64,000 nt of DNA from Methyloversatilis universalis (lineage in GTDB: Bacteria; Pseudomonadota; Gammaproteobacteria; Methylococcales; Methylococcaceae). Of the stretch, positions 9,131 to 28,658 are shown piece after piece. The position numbers and the translations under genes are program-made. The DNA lies in the NCBI GenBank assembly GCA_020723665.1, contig DYIL01000001.1:186001-250000 (forward strand). Reading direction: 5' to 3'. The notes below the pieces were generated by a model. The model was not told where the DNA came from. It saw nothing but the letters and a program-made list of their open reading frames with translations, and ran no database searches. Every line of letters starts with the position of its first letter. Within the stretch, counting starts at the first letter, position 1.

Positions 9131-10221
9131 GGCACCGTTTCCACGCGATTTGCCCTTATTTCGCCATGTTTCCCGAATCCTTTGTTGAGAAACACCTGGC
9201 GGCGAGTAAATATGAGGGGGTCGTGTTTGACCCTTTCTGTGGGCGTGGAACGACGATTTTCGAGTCTCTGCTGCGTGGCCGGGCTGCCGCCGGGTGCGAT
9301 ATAAATGCTGTCGCCATCTGTATCACTGGAGCCAAATGCGATCCCCCTACCGCAGGAGAGGTACTAACGCGGCTTGATGAGCTGGAAAGAGAGTTCGTCG
9401 GTTCAAGCCCTTCTGAACCGATGACTGAAGATATGGAAGAATTCTTCGGACTATGTTTCCACGCCGACACCTATGATCAGGTCCGGTATCTTCGGCAGCA
9501 GCTAATGTGGCAAACCAACAAGGTCGATAGGTTCATCGCTGCGCTATGCCTAGGCGCATTGCATGGGGAGTCACACCGCAGCCCTAATTACTTCAGCAAC
9601 CGAATGCCTCGGACGATCAGTACCAAACCAGCGTACTCAGTTCGGTGGTGGCGCAGCGGGGGTTACGTTCCTCCCTATAGGGACACTTTTGGAATTCTCC
9701 GCGGATTGGTGGCGTATCGTTATCGGACGCCTCCACCACAGCAACGTGGCGTAATTGTACTCACCGATGCGCGATTTGCGGCAAAACATTTCACCGACAT
9801 GAACGGAAAAGTGACAGACGTCATTACATCACCGCCATATCTAGACACAACAAATTATCGAGAAGATCAGTGGTTGCGCCTGTGGTTTCTCGGCGGTGAG
9901 GCTACCAGTAATTACCGGCGTGCTGATGCTAGGCATTACAATAAAGAGTTCTATTGGCGCTTTCTGGAAGAGGCTTGGTCTGGTATTGCGCCACTGGTGG
10001 CGAACAAGGCGCGATTTGTAGTTCGGATTGGTGGGCGTCGATTGGAGAAGGCCGAAGCTCTATCATCGTTATGTAACACATTAACGTCTGGCCTCGGACG
10101 GGCGGTTCGTCCCGCAGATAACGGAGTTACGTCCTCTGTCAAGAGCTCTCAAGCCAACAGCTTCCGTGGCGCGAAAGCATCCCCAACAGTGGAACACGAT
10201 TTCTGCTTCATCGTTAGCTGA
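9127..10221 (+). CDS. DNA (amino-)methyltransferase-like protein
   Basis: VVFDPFCGRGTTIFESLLRGRAAAGCDIN (SAM motif I region) and VITSPPYLDTTNY (catalytic SPPY). ATG at 9127 overlaps the stop of the previous gene. Confidence 0.85.
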   Translation: MRHRFHAICPYFAMFPESFVEKHLAASKYEGVVFDPFCGRGTTIFESLLRGRAAAGCDINAVAICITGAKCDPPTAGEVLTRLDELEREFVGSSPSEPMTEDMEEFFGLCFHADTYDQVRYLRQQLMWQTNKVDRFIAALCLGALHGESHRSPNYFSNRMPRTISTKPAYSVRWWRSGGYVPPYRDTFGILRGLVAYRYRTPPPQQRGVIVLTDARFAAKHFTDMNGKVTDVITSPPYLDTTNYREDQWLRLWFLGGEATSNYRRADARHYNKEFYWRFLEEAWSGIAPLVANKARFVVRIGGRRLEKAEALSSLCNTLTSGLGRAVRPADNGVTSSVKSSQANSFRGAKASPTVEHDFCFIVS

Positions 10222-10962: not shown

Positions 10963-11201
10963 GGTATAAGCCTCGAAGTGAGTGTTGGGGTCGCCCGCGA
11001 TACTATCCCAAGCCAACGGGATACGAACTCGAAAAAGATGCCGGAAAAACAGCATCTTTCAAACCTTGCAGAACAAAGAAATATGGTACATATGGAGGCG
11101 ATTTTGATGGCCTGAGATTCTCCGGCGATCAGAACTCCCAAGGTATCCATACAGATGCCAGGGAGCGCAAGCTGGGCGCTCATAGAAAAACAGCCTTTTT
11201 C

Positions 11202-11325
11202 CAACAACCCTTTCCAGGGGATGCACACATCCCCGAAAGGGTTCATGCATGCTCCCCGGAAAACCAGCGAACCGCACGCGCTGGTGGCTTCAGTCCATTT
11301 TCCCGAGTGCGGCGGGGGGAGCATG
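11202..11325 (+). promoter_or_regulatory. structured leader L1 (ssb)
   Basis: A GGGGATGCA (11217-11225); B CATGCTCCCC (11248-11257) perfectly complementary (10 bp) to C GGGGAGCATG (11316-11325) covering SD and AUG. Also hairpin AACCCTTTccaGGGGATGcacaCATCCCCgAAAGGGTT. Confidence 0.75.
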
Positions 11326-11826
11326 AGCATGTTGAACAAAGCCCACATCATCGGCCGCCTGGGCCGCGATCCTGAGGTTCGGTACACCCAGGACGGGACT
11401 TGTATCGCCAATCTCGCGATCGCCACGTCCGAGTCTCACAAGGACAGGAACACGGGCGAGCGCAAGGAATCCACCGAATGGCACCGGGTCGTCCTGTTTG
11501 GACGACTGGGTGAAATTGCCGGCGAATATCTCAAGAAAGGTTCGCTCGTCTACCTGGAAGGTCGACTGCGGACCCGGAAATGGCAGAACAAGGATGGGCA
11601 AGACCAGTACACGATGGAAATCGTCGGTTCCGAAATGAAAATGCTCGGTAGCCGCTCGGATTCCAAGGAGGCTGTCCAGTCCGCAAGTTCCGGCCGGAAC
11701 GGGGGCGGCGGTTTTACGCCGATGCCGACGGACGAAGGTTCCGACTTCGAAGACGACGATATTCCCTTCATCGCCGCTTTTGCCGTGAAACGCAACCCAT
11801 TCGGCCGTTCCACACCGGCCCTCTGA
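11323..11826 (+). CDS. ssb: single-stranded DNA-binding protein
   Basis: [72 protein letters not shown]-terminal tip is non-canonical. Confidence 0.93.
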
Positions 11827-11889
11827 AACCGATCACGCCGTTGACCTGACTGGCCGAGGGGTCAGTGGAATCAACGACCGCTCCATTAG

Positions 11890-11953
11890 CCCAAACCGGG
11901 GACATCACCGCCCCGCTGGGGCCATGGTGTCCCCTCACCGGAGGTACACCATG
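11890..11953 (+). promoter_or_regulatory. structured leader L2 (bet)
   Basis: A GGGGACA (11898-11904) / B TGTCCCC (11928-11934); B ATGGTGT (11924-11930) / C ACACCAT (11946-11952). Confidence 0.75.
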
Positions 11954-12853: not shown

Positions 12854-12865
12854 GCCGAATAATCT

Positions 12866-12941
12866 CAACGCCACCGGGGCGCCAGGAATCGCCCCAGGGG
12901 AGATCCATCATGGCGCCCCTTCATTTCAGGAGGACGCCATG
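12866..12941 (+). promoter_or_regulatory. structured leader L3
   Basis: A GGGGCGCCA (12876-12884) / B TGGCGCCCC (12911-12919); CATGGCG (12909-12915) / CGCCATG (12935-12941, includes AUG). Confidence 0.78.
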
Positions 12942-14257: not shown

Positions 14258-14271
14258 CGTTCAACCTCACT

Positions 14272-14342
14272 CAACCCGGAAGGGGCGCCGTCATCGCCCC
14301 CGGGCCGTGATGCGCCTCTCCTTATTTGGAAGGTGCCTCATG
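14272..14342 (+). promoter_or_regulatory. structured leader L4
   Basis: CAACCCGGAAGGGGCGCC...GCCCCCGGGC...GATGCGCCTCTCCTT...GGAAGGTGCCTCATG; A/B GGGGCGC/GCGCCTC (one G-U). Confidence 0.65.
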
Positions 14343-14903
14343 AACTATCAAGACTATCAATCGGCGCGGCGGGGCGGTCTGATCCCGGCCCAGGTCGCCC
14401 TGAACAGGGCTCGCCGGAGCCAACAACTGGACGAGCTCACCGAACGGCTGCAATTCGCATGGCTCCTGAAATACGGCCAGTGCGACGAAGCCGCTTGGGA
14501 ACAGGATGGATTCGACCTACGCGCGAAAGTCGTCGACGACGAGGACGGATGGTTGAGGGTCGGAATCGACGTGTACGGCAGGTTCAGCGACCGATGGCGA
14601 GCCAGCGCCGTTCGTCACTGGATGGGTGACCGCCGGTCCTACCAGTGGTTCGTACCCGCCCATCCCGAGCATCGCCACGAGCGCTACCGCAGGGCGTGCG
14701 ATTACGGCCACGGCTGGAGTTATGTCGGCATCCGAGTCATTGCCTCCAAGGCCGGTGTGCCCCTGGGCGAGACGACCCTCTGGGGCATCGAGTCCGATTC
14801 GGACATCGAATTCTTTACCGAGACCGTCCTGGATTTCGGCGAAGACGCGATCGCGAAGGCACAAGCCAAGCTACGCGGGCTGTGCGGAGGAAACTGCCAA
14901 TGA
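14340..14903 (+). CDS. hypothetical ICE protein
   Basis: MNYQDYQSARRGGLIPAQVALNRARR...; preceded by leader and SD (GGAAGG). Confidence 0.65.
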   Translation: MNYQDYQSARRGGLIPAQVALNRARRSQQLDELTERLQFAWLLKYGQCDEAAWEQDGFDLRAKVVDDEDGWLRVGIDVYGRFSDRWRASAVRHWMGDRRSYQWFVPAHPEHRHERYRRACDYGHGWSYVGIRVIASKAGVPLGETTLWGIESDSDIEFFTETVLDFGEDAIAKAQAKLRGLCGGNCQ

Positions 14904-15123: not shown

Positions 15124-15147
15124 GCCCCAACTTCGGTTGGGGCTTTT
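15124..15147 (+). terminator. Rho-independent terminator-like hairpin
   Basis: GCCCCAAcTTCGgTTGGGGCTTTT. Confidence 0.7.
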
Positions 15148-15320
15148 CCACTGGCCTTGCCGAATGCGAGACCAATGGAAAAGCCAGTTATTTCGGTGCC
15201 TTCGATGTTGAAGCGCTGAAATCCTGCCTCGTGCAGGCGTTCCGTCTACGGGCGGCGGGGAAGTCACCCTTCTTCGTGCCGGGTGCGTCAAACCCGGAGT
15301 TCGCGGCCGCAAGGCTCTGT

Positions 15321-15399
15321 CAGCAACCCATCCAGGGGAGATACATCCCCGAGTGGGGAACGTATCTCCCCTGTTTTTTTCAGAGGAGATACGACCATG
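15321..15399 (+). promoter_or_regulatory. structured leader L5 (terminator-like attenuator + RBS sequesterer)
   Basis: A CAGGGGAGATAC (15333-15344) / B GTATCTCCCCTG (15362-15373) perfect 12 bp followed by T7; B GTATCTCC / C GGAGATAC (15385-15392). Confidence 0.82.
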
Positions 15400-15684
15400 A
15401 AACGAAGCGACACCCTCTTTTCCAGAAGAGCTGCCCGCGTGGCCGCCGAGGATCAGATCCTCGAGATGGCCTCGCTCAAACCCGCCACGGTCGCGGGCGC
15501 GCTGGTTCAGCATCCGGATATTTTCCGGGAGTTGAATGACGACATGGCCAGGACCCTCGTCCTGTCCCTGATCGACCGAGGTCAAGCGGAAATACTCCGC
15601 CAAATCCTGGGGCTGAAGACCATCGGCCGACGCAAGGCCGCCCTGCTCGCCGAGTTACTCCTGCGGAATGCGTTCCGCGAGTAG
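15397..15684 (+). CDS. hypothetical protein (95 aa)
   Basis: MKRSDTLFSRRAARVAAEDQILEMASLKP...; leader plus SD AGGAG. Confidence 0.65.
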   Translation: MKRSDTLFSRRAARVAAEDQILEMASLKPATVAGALVQHPDIFRELNDDMARTLVLSLIDRGQAEILRQILGLKTIGRRKAALLAELLLRNAFRE

Positions 15685-15864: not shown

Positions 15865-15920
15865 CGATGGCTCCTGATGCGGTGTCCGATAGTCACATCG
15901 TACCGCGGAGTCTTTGTTTA

Positions 15921-16001
15921 GCAACCCCGACGGGGAGGTTCACGCCCCCGGGGAGTCGTGCGCCTTCTCTTTGGGTGAAACCCTGAATAGGAGGCGTTAT
16001 G
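15921..16001 (+). promoter_or_regulatory. structured leader L6 (CobS-like gene)
   Basis: GCAACCCCGACGGGGAGGTTCACGCCCCCGGGGAGTCGTGCGCCTTCTC...AGGAGGCGTTATG; B CGCCTTCT nearly complementary to AGGAGGCG. Confidence 0.6.
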
Positions 16002-17686: not shown

Positions 17687-17698
17687 ATTCTTTTTTTC

Positions 17699-17766
17699 AC
17701 CCCGAAGGGGCGCATCATTCGCCCTCGGGGCAGAGTGCGCCCCTCTCTTTTGGAGGACGCACCATG
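17699..17766 (+). promoter_or_regulatory. structured leader L7 (DUF3150 gene)
   Basis: A GGGGCGCA (17707-17714) / B TGCGCCCC (17736-17743); B GTGCG / C CGCAC next to GGAGGA. Confidence 0.75.
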
Positions 17767-18825: not shown

Positions 18826-18831
18826 ATGTAT

Positions 18832-18908
18832 CAACCCTGGCGGGGTGGCCATCCTACCCCGGTCGGGACTGGACCGCGCCCCGCCTGCCATGTTTGGAGG
18901 CAACTATG
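18832..18908 (+). promoter_or_regulatory. structured leader L8
   Basis: CAACCCTGGCGGGG...; A GGCGGGG (18839-18845) / B CCCCGCC (18879-18885). Confidence 0.6.
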
Positions 18909-19721
18909 GCAAACAATTACGAACAAGCGACGGTGGAACCGGTATTGCCGGCGTCCGCCGTCTCGGATTTCGAGCGGGAACTCCTGCGCGGCTTCGGCTT
19001 CGCGAGCGAACCCGGCACCCTAGAGGCTGGCGCCAAGGCGCTGTATTTCTTCGCCGAAGACTCGGTGAATTCGTCCTATTTCGGCGCCTTGACCGTTGGC
19101 GATGTGATGGAAGCGGCAAGCCGAGGCGACAATCTCGCTGCCGCCCTGCTGGGGGATCTGGGCTCCCCAGAGGCCGACCTCACGATCGACACGTTCGACA
19201 AGGGGATTCCCTCCTGGGAGGACATCCTCCAGCACATCCTGCGGAAACCGGAGTGCGAAGGCATCGACGAAATCGTCGTCATGGCGGCGTACACCTGCTC
19301 CAAGATGCGGCCGGGAGAATTCGGCGGCTGGGTGACGCGCATTACGCGCGACTGCATTCAGTCCGAAGGAACCCGCTCCGTGCTGGACCGGATGCGGAAG
19401 GAAGATGCCCTTCACGAGGCGTCTGCTACCCTTCCTGAGGTATCTGACCACCACGAACACCTCCAACCGATATCAGCTTTTCAGGAAGATACCGGCGCCT
19501 TTGGCCCGCCGAGTGTAGACGTCCATATCGTCGCCAACGAAGAGCAAGTCGTCATTGATCTGGCGACCCCGGATCGCGCCTGGAAGGAGGGTCCGCGCCT
19601 TTATCTGGAACGGCGGAACGACCAGTGGCGTTGCTACATTCACAGGGACTCGGATGATGCCAAGGCGTTGCTCTCTATCCACGACGACCGGACGGTCGGC
19701 TTTGAGAGCTTTGACGCCTAG
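18906..19721 (+). CDS. hypothetical protein in CobS/CobT-like cluster
   Basis: MANNYEQATVEPVLPASAVSDFERELLRGFGFASEP...; leader and SD TTTGGAGG upstream. Confidence 0.65.
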   Translation: MANNYEQATVEPVLPASAVSDFERELLRGFGFASEPGTLEAGAKALYFFAEDSVNSSYFGALTVGDVMEAASRGDNLAAALLGDLGSPEADLTIDTFDKGIPSWEDILQHILRKPECEGIDEIVVMAAYTCSKMRPGEFGGWVTRITRDCIQSEGTRSVLDRMRKEDALHEASATLPEVSDHHEHLQPISAFQEDTGAFGPPSVDVHIVANEEQVVIDLATPDRAWKEGPRLYLERRNDQWRCYIHRDSDDAKALLSIHDDRTVGFESFDA

Positions 19722-19816
19722 CGTCGGAAAGTAGCGCTGGTACACGATGACCTCGTGAATGACCCGAATCGCGAGGCCCATGGGCTGACCTGCGATAGCG
19801 CAGCCGGCCTTACCAG

Positions 19817-19888
19817 TAAACCCGAAAGGGGCAAGTCCGCCCCGAAGGGGATCGGGTTTGCCCCTTATTTCTTAAGGAGCAAACCATG
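19817..19888 (+). promoter_or_regulatory. structured leader L9 (CobT-like gene)
   Basis: A AAGGGGCAA (19826-19834) / B TTGCCCCTT (19858-19866); B GGTTTGCCCCTT pairs 11/12 with C AAGGAGCAAACC (19874-19885). Confidence 0.82.
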
Positions 19889-21718: not shown

Positions 21719-21867
21719 CAGTGCCTGCCGGCCGGGTGGGCACCGGAAAGGCGACTTCTTGTGCGCGTCCATGACGGACCAGCACTCGATGATCCCAGCT
21801 GAGGATCTCAAACAAGCAGCCACACGACGGTCGTACGGGAGCCTGCCTCTCGTCATGATACTTAATC

Positions 21868-21942
21868 TACCCACCTGGGAGCAAACGATCCCCCTGGGAG
21901 GGCGTTTCTCCTTGTACTTTTACCATAGGAGAAACGAGCATG
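21868..21942 (+). promoter_or_regulatory. structured leader L10
   Basis: A GGGAGCAAACG (21877-21887); B CGTTTCTCCT (21903-21912) perfectly complementary to C AGGAGAAACG (21927-21936). Confidence 0.75.
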
Positions 21943-22563
21943 TACTTTATCCTTGGACTTTGCATGATCGCGGCCGTCATCGTCGCGGCCAACATCGTGC
22001 TCACCACGATAGTGAGGCTGGCTTCTTTCGCATTCGCAGCGGCAAAAGCCGGTTATGAAGCGATCCGCGCCCGGCGCGCGCATAGCGAACGTATCTATCA
22101 CTACCCATCATCCGTAATGGCCACCCCCATTCGGCCCAAGCGGGACTGGGAAAAGGAATCGACGTTGGTGCGCCAGCAGGTCCTTCTCGAAGGCCCGCGC
22201 ATCTGGCGTAACCCCAGCCCTGTTCTCCAGCAGATCGATTGGGACATCGCCATCGAACTGAAAAAACAGGAACTGGTCCGCCTCAAGACCGAAACGGCAC
22301 AGATTGTCCAGCAGCAGACCAAGGCAGAAGCCCGGGTCATGCGAAGGAAAAGCAGGTCAGCCAAACCGCTGACGGCTACCCGACAGGATGATCTGTTTTC
22401 GGTGACCTCAGCGACAAGTCAGCCGGCTTCGCTGGCCGAAGCCGGCATAACTCTGCCGCTTGCCGCGCAATTCGGCGAATCTCCGGGTCATCCGGTTCGC
22501 CGCGAAGGACTGCATCCGTCAGTTCGGCAACCCGCTGCCCGAAGCGGTTGTTTCCGCCATTGA
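21940..22563 (+). CDS. hypothetical membrane-anchored protein
   Basis: N-terminal TM MYFILGLCMIAAVIVAANIVLTTIV; leader with 10-bp RBS-sequestering segment upstream. Confidence 0.6.
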   Translation: MYFILGLCMIAAVIVAANIVLTTIVRLASFAFAAAKAGYEAIRARRAHSERIYHYPSSVMATPIRPKRDWEKESTLVRQQVLLEGPRIWRNPSPVLQQIDWDIAIELKKQELVRLKTETAQIVQQQTKAEARVMRRKSRSAKPLTATRQDDLFSVTSATSQPASLAEAGITLPLAAQFGESPGHPVRREGLHPSVRQPAARSGCFRH

Positions 22564-22885: not shown

Positions 22886-22990
22886 CGGGATTTCCTCGAG
22901 GATTCTGTTCTATGACCAGAAGATAACCGAGAAAACCCGATAGGCAATACCCAACCACGGCCCGGCATCCAGAGAGATGTCGTGGCGATC

Positions 22991-23061
22991 CAGCAACCCT
23001 CGAGGGGCGGACATTCCTTTTGGGGAACCTGGTCTGCCCTCATACCAAGAGAAAGATCATG
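22991..23061 (+). promoter_or_regulatory. structured leader L11
   Basis: CAGCAACCCTCGAGGGGCGGAC...; A GAGGGGCGGAC (23002-23012) / B GTCTGCCCTC (23032-23041). B/C pairing weak. Confidence 0.6.
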
Positions 23062-23487
23062 AAAAAATTCGTTGTCAGCTACGAGTTGGACTACGTCCAC
23101 ACGGTCCGAGTCGGAGTTACCGCACCGGATGCTGAAGCCGCGAAGAAAACCGCGGAGGAAGCGTTCGATACCGGGACAATTTGGGACAACACGGCAGACA
23201 TGCCGTTGTTGTACGACGACTTCGAGGAAATGGATCGCGGTCACGTGCTCGAGTTCGAGGCCCAGGAGGTCGAGGAATTCCCGGAGCCCGAGGCCTGCGT
23301 GAGGGAGATCATCCAGCGTGACAAAGCATTCGCTGCGTGCAAGGCGCTGATCGCTGCTTACCAGAGGGGAGAGGAGTGCGAATCCATTGACTGGGAAGAT
23401 GTGGATCAAGCCCATCAACTCGCGTTGAAGGCCATGCCACACCTGGCGAGGGAGCAAGATGTCCTTTCCGGTGACGTCGTCAACTGA
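23059..23487 (+). CDS. hypothetical ICE protein
   Basis: MKKFVVSYELDYVHTVRVGVTAPDAEAAKKTAEEAF...; leader upstream. Confidence 0.65.
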   Translation: MKKFVVSYELDYVHTVRVGVTAPDAEAAKKTAEEAFDTGTIWDNTADMPLLYDDFEEMDRGHVLEFEAQEVEEFPEPEACVREIIQRDKAFAACKALIAAYQRGEECESIDWEDVDQAHQLALKAMPHLAREQDVLSGDVVN

Positions 23488-23773: not shown

Positions 23774-23787
23774 AAGGAGCATCCATC

Positions 23788-23851
23788 AACAACCCAGCCG
23801 GGGAAAATACCCCGGAGGGGTCGTTTCCCCGGCCAATGGAGAAACGATATG
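23788..23851 (+). promoter_or_regulatory. structured leader L12
   Basis: A GCCGGGGAAA (23797-23806) / B TTTCCCCGGC (23824-23833) perfect 10 bp; B TCGTTTCCCC vs C GGAGAAACGA (23838-23847) 9/10. Confidence 0.8.
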
Positions 23852-24349
23852 ACAAAAGTACAAAGCCTCTCTGAAGGTGGCCGCGAGCCCGAATGCGGCG
23901 ATCTAGTCAACGCACTGAAGGAGTGCCTCGCCGCGATGGAGTCCATGCGGACCCAGATCGAACAGATGAGAGGCTTGTTCGATGACGCCGATGGCGCCAT
24001 TGCCGGTGCGTGTCGGGATCACGAGGCGGCCGATTCCTTTGCAAGATCCGTGTTGGCATCGGAAGGAGGCGGTCATGGCAAATCCTGCATGGACAGGCTT
24101 TACATCGCCACCGCCGCTTTGCGCGATCTTCAAGTGGGCTTCCCACATGACGAGATTGCCGCCGTGCATGGCACCGGTCTGCGCAACCTAGTTCGCGAAC
24201 TCGCTAATTACCTCCGTGAAAACGGGATCGATGATGAGGGGGCGCTGGATTGCGTTGCAATGGATGAAATCGAGCCACAGCAAGCCGAGAACATCGTCGC
24301 GGAAACACCCGATGCGCTCTCTCCAGTACGCAGGGAGCATACGAAATGA
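23849..24349 (+). CDS. hypothetical ICE protein
   Basis: MTKVQSLSEGGREPECGDLVNALKECLAAMESMRTQIEQM...; leader upstream. Confidence 0.6.
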   Translation: MTKVQSLSEGGREPECGDLVNALKECLAAMESMRTQIEQMRGLFDDADGAIAGACRDHEAADSFARSVLASEGGGHGKSCMDRLYIATAALRDLQVGFPHDEIAAVHGTGLRNLVRELANYLRENGIDDEGALDCVAMDEIEPQQAENIVAETPDALSPVRREHTK

Positions 24350-24588: not shown

Positions 24589-24733
24589 TACGCGCTGTAA
24601 TGACCGATCCCCATCGGGATAACCGTCCCGATGAGGCGGTCCTCGATGGTTTTTTTGGCTATTAGGGGGAGGGATAAATTCTCTCCCCCTTTCGCAACTT
24701 ACGTGAGCGCTGCGGAATATCGCAGCGATTCTG

Positions 24734-24811
24734 CCAACCGCCCCTGCGGGATGTTTCGTCCCGCACGGGCCGAAGTGTCTCCGGGGGTTTTTTACTCCGG
24801 AGATCCCCATG
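24734..24811 (+). promoter_or_regulatory. structured leader L13, divergent (DUF4942 gene)
   Basis: CCAACCGCCCCTGCGGGATGTTTCGTCCCGC...GTGTCTCCGGGGGTTTTTTACTCCGGAGATCCCCATG; TCTCCGG / CCGGAGA. Confidence 0.55.
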
Positions 24812-26583: not shown

Positions 26584-26600
26584 TCTCAAATTTTTTGTCG

Positions 26601-26686
26601 CCCACCCCGCCGGGATTCCCAAGGCCTCCCGTGCGGGAGGTTTTGAGAATCCCGGTCGGTGACCAATCTCGAAACCAAGGAGACAA
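26601..26686 (+). promoter_or_regulatory. leader-like element L15, upstream of the ribonucleotide reductase remnant
   Basis: CACCCCGCCGGGATTC; A CCGGGATTC (26610-26618) / B GAATCCCGG (26647-26655) perfect 9 bp; inner CCTCCCGTGCGGGAGG; downstream AAGGAG. Confidence 0.55.
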
Positions 26687-27507: not shown

Positions 27508-28509
27508 ATGGGTCGTCGTCGCAAATCACAACAGCCGCTCCCAAAGTACGTTTATTTAGCCAAGGGGCGTTATGTCTACAGGCCTTGGCAGGATGGGCGC
27601 TTACAAAAAGAAGTTGTTCTCTGCCCTGAGGACTCCGCCATCTCCGAAGTGTGGAAAGCCTATGAAGCGCTGACGGCTGAAAAAGCAACGCCACGAACGC
27701 TGGCCTGGCTGATCGAACAATTCCTCTCAAGCGCTCAGTTCAGACAGCTTTCAGCCAACACGCAACACGACTATCGGAAGTACGCTCGTCATATCACTGA
27801 GACTTCGACCAAATCTGGGCCGTTTGGAACAATCTTGATTGAACGAATCACCCCTGGCGTCATCCGCCGGTACGTGGACAAGCGATCCGAAGCCGCACCG
27901 GTGCAGGCCAACCGTGAGCTCAGCCTCCTGAAACGGGTATTTGGTTGGGCCAGCGAAAGGGATCTGGTCACAACAAACCCTGCCCAACCCGTTAGACGCA
28001 ACGCCGAGAAGGCTCGAGACGCTTACATTACGGACAGCCAGTACGCCTATGTCTATGAGCGTGCGGAAAAGCCTTGGTATCTTCGGCCGGCAATGGAGTT
28101 CGCCTTTCTTTGCCGGGCAAGAAAATCGGAAGTGCTCGATCTTCGGGTGGATGACATCCTTGAAGAGGGACTTCGAATTCGTCGGCGCAAGGGAAGCCGA
28201 ACCACCGTCGTACGTTGGTCCCAGCGCCTTAGAGCTGCCGTCAACGTTTGTATCAACAGACCAAGCAAAATCAAGTCGGTCTACCTGATTCATGATGCCA
28301 ACGGACAACGCATTCTCGAGACCACGTTCGATACATCCTGGCAACGGTTCAACCAAACCCTAGGGGAGCATCGCATCCGTTTCCACGACCTGAAAGCCAA
28401 GGGTGTTACGGATGACCAAAGCGATAAACAGCGGGGGGCGGGGCACAAATCAGCCGCCATGACGGGGATCTATGATCGTAAACCCCACTTGGTCGACCCG
28501 ATTGAATAA
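27508..28509 (+). CDS. int: tyrosine recombinase/integrase
   Basis: ANRELSLLKRVFGWASERDLVTTNPA; FLCRARKSEVLDLRVDDI; IRFHDLKAKGVTD; GHKSAAMTGIYDR (catalytic R/H/R/Y pattern). Confidence 0.88.
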   Translation: MGRRRKSQQPLPKYVYLAKGRYVYRPWQDGRLQKEVVLCPEDSAISEVWKAYEALTAEKATPRTLAWLIEQFLSSAQFRQLSANTQHDYRKYARHITETSTKSGPFGTILIERITPGVIRRYVDKRSEAAPVQANRELSLLKRVFGWASERDLVTTNPAQPVRRNAEKARDAYITDSQYAYVYERAEKPWYLRPAMEFAFLCRARKSEVLDLRVDDILEEGLRIRRRKGSRTTVVRWSQRLRAAVNVCINRPSKIKSVYLIHDANGQRILETTFDTSWQRFNQTLGEHRIRFHDLKAKGVTDDQSDKQRGAGHKSAAMTGIYDRKPHLVDPIE

Positions 28510-28539
28510 ATTTTTTTCGGAAAAATTTTCGGAAAACAA

Positions 28540-28573
28540 AAGGCTTGCAGGCATAAGACACCTGTAAGCCTTT
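28540..28573 (-). terminator. inverted repeat/terminator-like hairpin downstream of tRNA
   Basis: On minus: AAAGGCTTACAGG-TGTCTTATG-CCTGCAAGCCTTTTG. Confidence 0.6.
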
Positions 28574-28581
28574 GATTTACT

Positions 28582-28658
<77 letters not shown>

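Follow-up and report, generated by a model that had tools for sequence, protein, structure and literature searches.

The leader named L5, which ends at the start codon of a 95-aa ORF, raises the question of whether one RNA strand can both terminate transcription and hide an RBS, as the initial annotation of the window (the whole stretch of 64,000 nucleotides that was analysed) had proposed. The elements on which the proposal was built were found to be exact to the base. The perfect 12-bp stem was formed by strand A (CAGGGGAGATAC, 15333–15344) and strand B (GTATCTCCCCTG, 15362–15373) around a 17-nt loop, the TTTTTTT run (15374–15380) was present immediately 3' of B, and strand C (GGAGATAC, 15385–15392) was followed by the ATG at 15397–15399. 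Just three places in the 64-kb window had a perfect 12-bp inverted repeat within 40 nt, and six windows simulated to match its trinucleotide statistics had none. The helix energies of L5 were −21.5 kcal/mol for A:B and −16.3 kcal/mol for B:C, and CTG/CAG pairing around the T7 loop added an upper stem to B:C. A second hairpin, absent from the initial annotation, was also found. In this hairpin 1, ACCCA (15326–15330) pairs with TGGGG and encloses GGGGA (15335–15339) paired with TCCCC (15346–15350); A thus has a further partner, A', and would normally be tied up in hairpin 1.

Our reading is that L5 is probably a cis-acting two-state RNA leader and a member of a large family found before most genes in the DNA-processing and establishment clusters of conjugative elements. 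In state 1, ACCC would pair with GGG on the outside and A with A' on the inside, which would tie up A, while B:C would hide the Shine-Dalgarno sequence and keep translation off. In state 2, B would pair with A, which mimics C, A' would pair with the downstream G-run, and the RBS would be free. The parts of L5 are as follows.

15320–15399, + strand: L5 leader, the whole putative RNA switch up to the start codon (covariance-model match, E 7.9e-21 in its own genome; sequence; orthologs)
15326–15330, + strand: P1a, the ACCC(A) element, pairing with P1b in state 1; CCC is nearly invariant in the family
15333–15344, + strand: A strand CAGGGGAGATAC, pairing with A' (hairpin 1) or B (state 2) and resembling C
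15346–15350, + strand: A' (TCCCC), pairing with A in state 1 and with P1b in state 2
15354–15358, + strand: P1b (TGGGG), pairing with P1a in state 1; its GGGG pairs with A' in state 2
15362–15373, + strand: B strand GTATCTCCCCTG, the anti-RBS, pairing with C or A
15374–15380, + strand: T7, which forms the B:C hairpin loop and might serve an A:B terminator as its U-tract
15385–15392, + strand: C strand GGAGATAC with the Shine-Dalgarno sequence GGAG
15397–15684, + strand: putatively controlled ORF, 95 aa

The 95-aa ORF had no Pfam or NCBIfam match, and its orthologs were found before cobS in seven other loci. A terminator-like hairpin (GCCCCAACTTCGGTTGGGGC-TTTT) was present at 15124–15143 of the window, just 3' of the stop codon of the preceding ORF; the transcript of L5 may therefore be a separate one, or the terminator ahead of L5 may be leaky.

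Alignment of 29 paralogous leaders with MAFFT and RNAalifold gave no consensus structure, since the paralogs do not align by sequence, and this was solved by starting from the L5 orthologs. A first covariance model, built from eight L5 orthologs only, was run over 758 kb and gave 276 matches (E≤1) in 39 loci. The top 195 of these were all on the gene strand, and the ones inspected ended at start codons. A second model was built from 150 of the 276 matches. A hand-written finder for hairpin 1 was too strict, and the energy of hairpin 1 alone was useless as a criterion, being passed by 196 of 279 internal ATGs. The family contained 13 clear copies in the window, located before most genes of the ssb-recT-exo-cobS-DUF3150-VWA block. 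The copies other than L5 are given below; genes and ORFs were called by simple rules, and the E-values of covariance-model (CM) matches are rough owing to a shortened calibration.

11201–11331, + strand: leader before ssb (CM; SSB domain)
11883–11953, + strand: leader before recT/bet (CM; RecT domain)
12862–12941, + strand: leader before a small ORF at 12939 (CM)
14268–14342, + strand: leader before ORF 14340–14903 (CM)
15918–16001, + strand: leader before the cobS-like AAA ATPase gene (CM; Pfam)
17693–17766, + strand: leader before the DUF3150 gene (CM; Pfam)
18828–18908, + strand: weak leader before ORF 18906–19721 (CM, E 0.027; fold)
19813–19888, + strand: leader before the VWA gene (CM)
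21863–21942, + strand: leader before ORF 21940–22563 (CM)
22990–23061, + strand: leader with poor B:C before ORF 23059–23487 (CM, E 0.0077)
23786–23851, + strand: leader before ORF 23849–24349 (CM)
24730–24811, + strand: leader before the DUF4942 gene (CM; Pfam)

The leaders g23059, g23849 and L064_o9222 were poor family members with weak B:C. The end of cobS is overlapped by wgr, a gene before which no leader was visible in the sequences inspected. An additional weak leader-like match (E 0.18) was present at 26598–26679 of the window, with no obvious long ORF downstream. At 27508–28658, a phage-type integrase gene adjoins a tRNA-Met(cat) gene, which is likely the end of an integrated element; a second copy of the tRNA-Met(cat) end was not found within the window.

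The claim that a single B strand has two mutually exclusive partners, A and C, was borne out by covariation among the L5 orthologs, by 145 distinct family members and by strand swaps; the same covariation and strand-swap tests backed the occlusion of the RBS by B:C. In the L5 orthologs, both the A:B and the B:C folds covaried. When strands were swapped among 36 leaders, which had been chosen by eye, z was −12.4 for A:B and −12.0 for B:C; the resemblance of A to C gave z +7.7 and the control A:C pairing, at z −1.2, was no better than chance. Swaps within single genomes gave z between −4.4 and −6.8 for both helices, and swaps among 95 non-redundant upstream regions of block genes, unselected by eye, gave z −13.8 and −11.5. 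Among 34 independent leaders from other genomes, A:B had z −7.6 (−3.6 without GGGG) and the resemblance of A to C had z 4.1. Strand swapping destroyed B:C pairing too, including in the independent set from other genomes. In the 150-sequence alignment, which was fitted to state 1 only, A:B had 107 two-sided compensatory changes against 56 expected from shuffles; pair counts from covariance-model alignments are biased towards state 1, the state to which such alignments are fitted. Compared with shuffled sequence, both states were more stable (mean z −4.1 and −2.9). The difference between own and swapped strands was 3.9 and 3.0 kcal/mol in the leaders, against 0.7 and 1.1 kcal/mol in internal-ATG controls, where G- and C-runs account for generic pairing and hence for the small effect. 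The sequences thus show that the family exists, that its members stand at start codons and that both helices are real.

State 1 was the more stable in most leaders, by a median of 6.5 kcal/mol, which would also suit a static RBS hairpin, in which B:C merely keeps translation low and neither hairpin 1 nor the A-like strand takes part in any switching. A review (PMC4542580) likewise mentions only a strong translational attenuator. However, the A:B complementarity was leader-specific, covaried and recurred in independent genomes, and the loop of hairpin 1, taken by itself, fitted its own B (z −5.2) and not C; a static hairpin is thus unlikely as the whole explanation, and a two-state leader is the reading that we prefer.

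The energies for this two-state leader are those of single leaders folded in isolation at 37 °C, calculated with standard parameters. State 1 of L5 (hairpin 1 and B:C) was found at −35.4 kcal/mol and state 2 (A:B enclosing A':GGGG, with the RBS free) at −31.8 kcal/mol. As state 1 is usually the more stable, the predicted default is translation off. At the predicted equilibrium the RBS of L5 was hidden (probability of an unpaired Shine-Dalgarno sequence 0.006), and the cost of opening it was 4.1 kcal/mol. Before the RBS is made, A:B was the best fold in 33 of the 36 leaders, with C competing for B later; during synthesis, the leader would thus pass from hairpin 1 to A:B and, once C is out, to hairpin 1 with B:C. 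Freeing of the RBS would require the opening of hairpin 1. Blocking of ACCC lowered the median cost of opening the RBS from 7.1 to 3.0 kcal/mol, whereas blocking of A raised it to 10.5 kcal/mol. Anything that occupies ACCC would shift the leader to state 2 and turn translation on, and anything that occupies A would lock it off. ACCC was nearly invariant and its pyrimidine-rich 5' flank was not explained by pairing; from these features and the modelled energies, we infer that ACCC is the likely control point and state 1 the default. The candidate agents at ACCC would be a protein or an RNA, or else a ribosome at the end of the preceding gene.

The last of these agents would couple the genes of an operon, the ribosome that ends the upstream gene covering ACCC and A and thereby opening the next gene, which is compatible with two states and names a candidate trigger for them. 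Upstream stop codons were mostly found 0–60 nt before ACCC, some IncC stop codons touch it (TAA-CCC), and blocking of ACCC made release of the RBS cheaper in 28 of the 36 leaders. But the distances from stop codon to ACCC were broad, a good part exceeding 90 nt; L5 itself lies about 210 nt past the previous stop codon and behind the hairpin at 15124–15143, and the first gene, ssb, has a leader too. We consider such a relay doubtful and have rejected it as the general trigger, since the stop-to-leader distance is too variable and L5 does not fit. Alternatively, one trans-acting factor of the conjugative elements might bind the pyrimidine-ACCC flank and hairpin 1 of all leaders and so switch the set of establishment genes translationally, for example on entering a new cell. 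This proposal is speculative and rather improbable as it stands; no trans-acting factor for the leaders was found.

Of the dual role that had been proposed for L5, occlusion of the RBS by B:C was supported by covariation and swaps, and transcription attenuation was not established. Of 88 non-redundant leaders, only 11 had a T-run of at least five (9 of the 34 independent ones), and T7 is the loop of B:C. L5 might mainly be a transcription attenuator, with A:B followed by U7 ending transcription. In favour of this, T7 directly follows a GC-rich 12-bp stem (15333–15373), the pattern of an intrinsic terminator; with RNA polymerase located over the T-run, no fold was predicted to be better than A:B (−31.8 kcal/mol); and seven of the eight L5 orthologs kept at least five Ts after B. 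Against this, the extended B:C hairpin of L5 orthologs has the T-run as its loop (in L007, as a part of its stem, paired with A7), and a terminator scan of the region gave 28 sites against 18.5 expected by chance. Moreover, an A:B helix that both terminates transcription and frees the RBS would have conflicting outputs. Attenuation as the main function is therefore quite unlikely; termination by A:B and U7 as an added function in L5 alone is possible, if the less probable outcome.

Beyond the window, the second model gave 12 matches in the 3.9-Mb genome to which the window belongs, that of a Methylocaldum relative, all on a single contig, ten in the ssb-recT-cobS block and two near the contig end. 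A second leader cluster is located there (locus L072, G000:C5:2448–4256, − strand), about 190 kb away; it had up to four leader matches, two of them at E≤0.1 in the own-genome search. In a survey of the class, matches at E≤1e-4 were found in 37 of 369 sampled genomes, mostly several per locus. In a survey of the phylum, 14 of 399 genomes had matches, two of these genomes lying outside the class. Nearly all ORFs behind the 70 matches at E≤1e-4 were at least 30 aa long, and 68 of the matches finished at the ORF start codon. Relatives of cobS (E≤1e-60) were present in only 6 of the 369 class genomes, against leaders in 37, so the leaders are not tied to the cobS block; no cobS relatives were found in viral contigs. 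In homologous blocks of an IncC plasmid and a Methylobacter plasmid, leaders were present before most genes, and they were also found in the blocks of purple sulfur bacteria and Vibrio. The genes behind leaders in the surveyed genomes included those of the DUF3577, DUF932, ArdC and DUF6094 families, which we take to be typical of ICE clusters. The leaders occur in ICE-type gene clusters of conjugative mobile elements, including antibiotic-resistance plasmids.

Given that these genes belong to the DNA-processing and early-establishment classes and that hairpin 1 is near-palindromic, the hairpins might instead act in DNA or RNA processing, as single-strand promoters in the transferred strand or as RNase III sites. 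However, B is tied by covariation specifically to its own gene's Shine-Dalgarno region, the motif stops at start codons, and a search of the leaders for sigma-70-like promoters gave none, which makes a processing role very improbable.

A few observations were made on individual loci. In the IncC-type plasmids, the leader matches at L063 9311–9380 and L071 5339–5408 precede an unannotated ORF start, which suggests a missed small gene. In L063, three IncC leaders, those of the genes at 9992, 14827 and 18647, each have the sequence GATAGCTGGTCGCCAAAAACAAACAGC ahead of them; the cobS and DUF3150 leaders of L063 that lie behind it have a nearly identical hairpin 1.

Conjugative elements spread resistance genes, and how they time the genes for DNA processing is known only in part; a single RNA design may determine when these genes are translated. 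Its repetition gene by gene in IncC plasmids and ICE-type clusters (about one-tenth of the sampled class genomes) implies a coordinated layer of translational control. The family is widespread and apparently uncatalogued; as far as could be found, such control has been described for one gene only. It offers simple targets for mutation (ACCC, A, B and C) and a covariance model for finding further members.

Among known systems, L5 shares with intrinsic terminators and transcription attenuators the A:B stem and U7; the family differs from them in that most members are without the U-tract and the RBS, C, acts as the competing partner. Leader-peptide translational attenuators of the erm and cat type likewise have mutually exclusive helices and an RBS hidden by default. 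However, no ATG, and hence no start codon of a leader peptide, was present within 15318–15396, and the control point of the leaders appears to be ACCC with hairpin 1 rather than a stalled leader ribosome. In Rfam 15, the window had no match above the gathering threshold except one tRNA, and the leader region at E≤10 had sub-threshold matches to unrelated families only. In the IncC and other loci, no Rfam family matched the leaders; radC RNA was found beside three of them in L098. The radC RNA (RF01754) is also a cis-regulatory RNA; it differs in being a separate 149-nt structure with no match to the leader in the window. The three radC RNAs of L098 (5981–6226, 7555–7738 and 9241–9476, − strand) are located directly 5' of family leaders or overlap them, and the two RNAs may act together in this locus.

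Garriss et al. in 2013 reportedly described the translational attenuator of the SXT bet gene. In the literature covered, which included few subscription papers, no description of the leader family was found beyond SXT bet. According to the review (PMC4542580), bet of the ICE SXT has a strong translational attenuator upstream of it. This attenuator is like the leaders in its gene block (ssb-bet-exo, of the IncA/C and SXT type), its place before bet and the proposed hindrance of translation. E. coli genomes searched for an SXT copy of bet gave essentially IncC-like plasmids only, and the comparison was made with the IncC bet leader; this leader contained hairpin 1 and an RBS-sequestering hairpin. 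A recT/bet leader was present in the window, in IncC and in the diverged plasmid L071. L5 precedes a different gene of the same block, and its RBS is paired in the predicted ground state. The SXT attenuator was described for one gene, whereas the leaders found here stand before most genes of the block and in other ICE clusters, with an A strand that imitates the RBS. As the review describes it, the SXT bet attenuator is very probably a member of this leader family.
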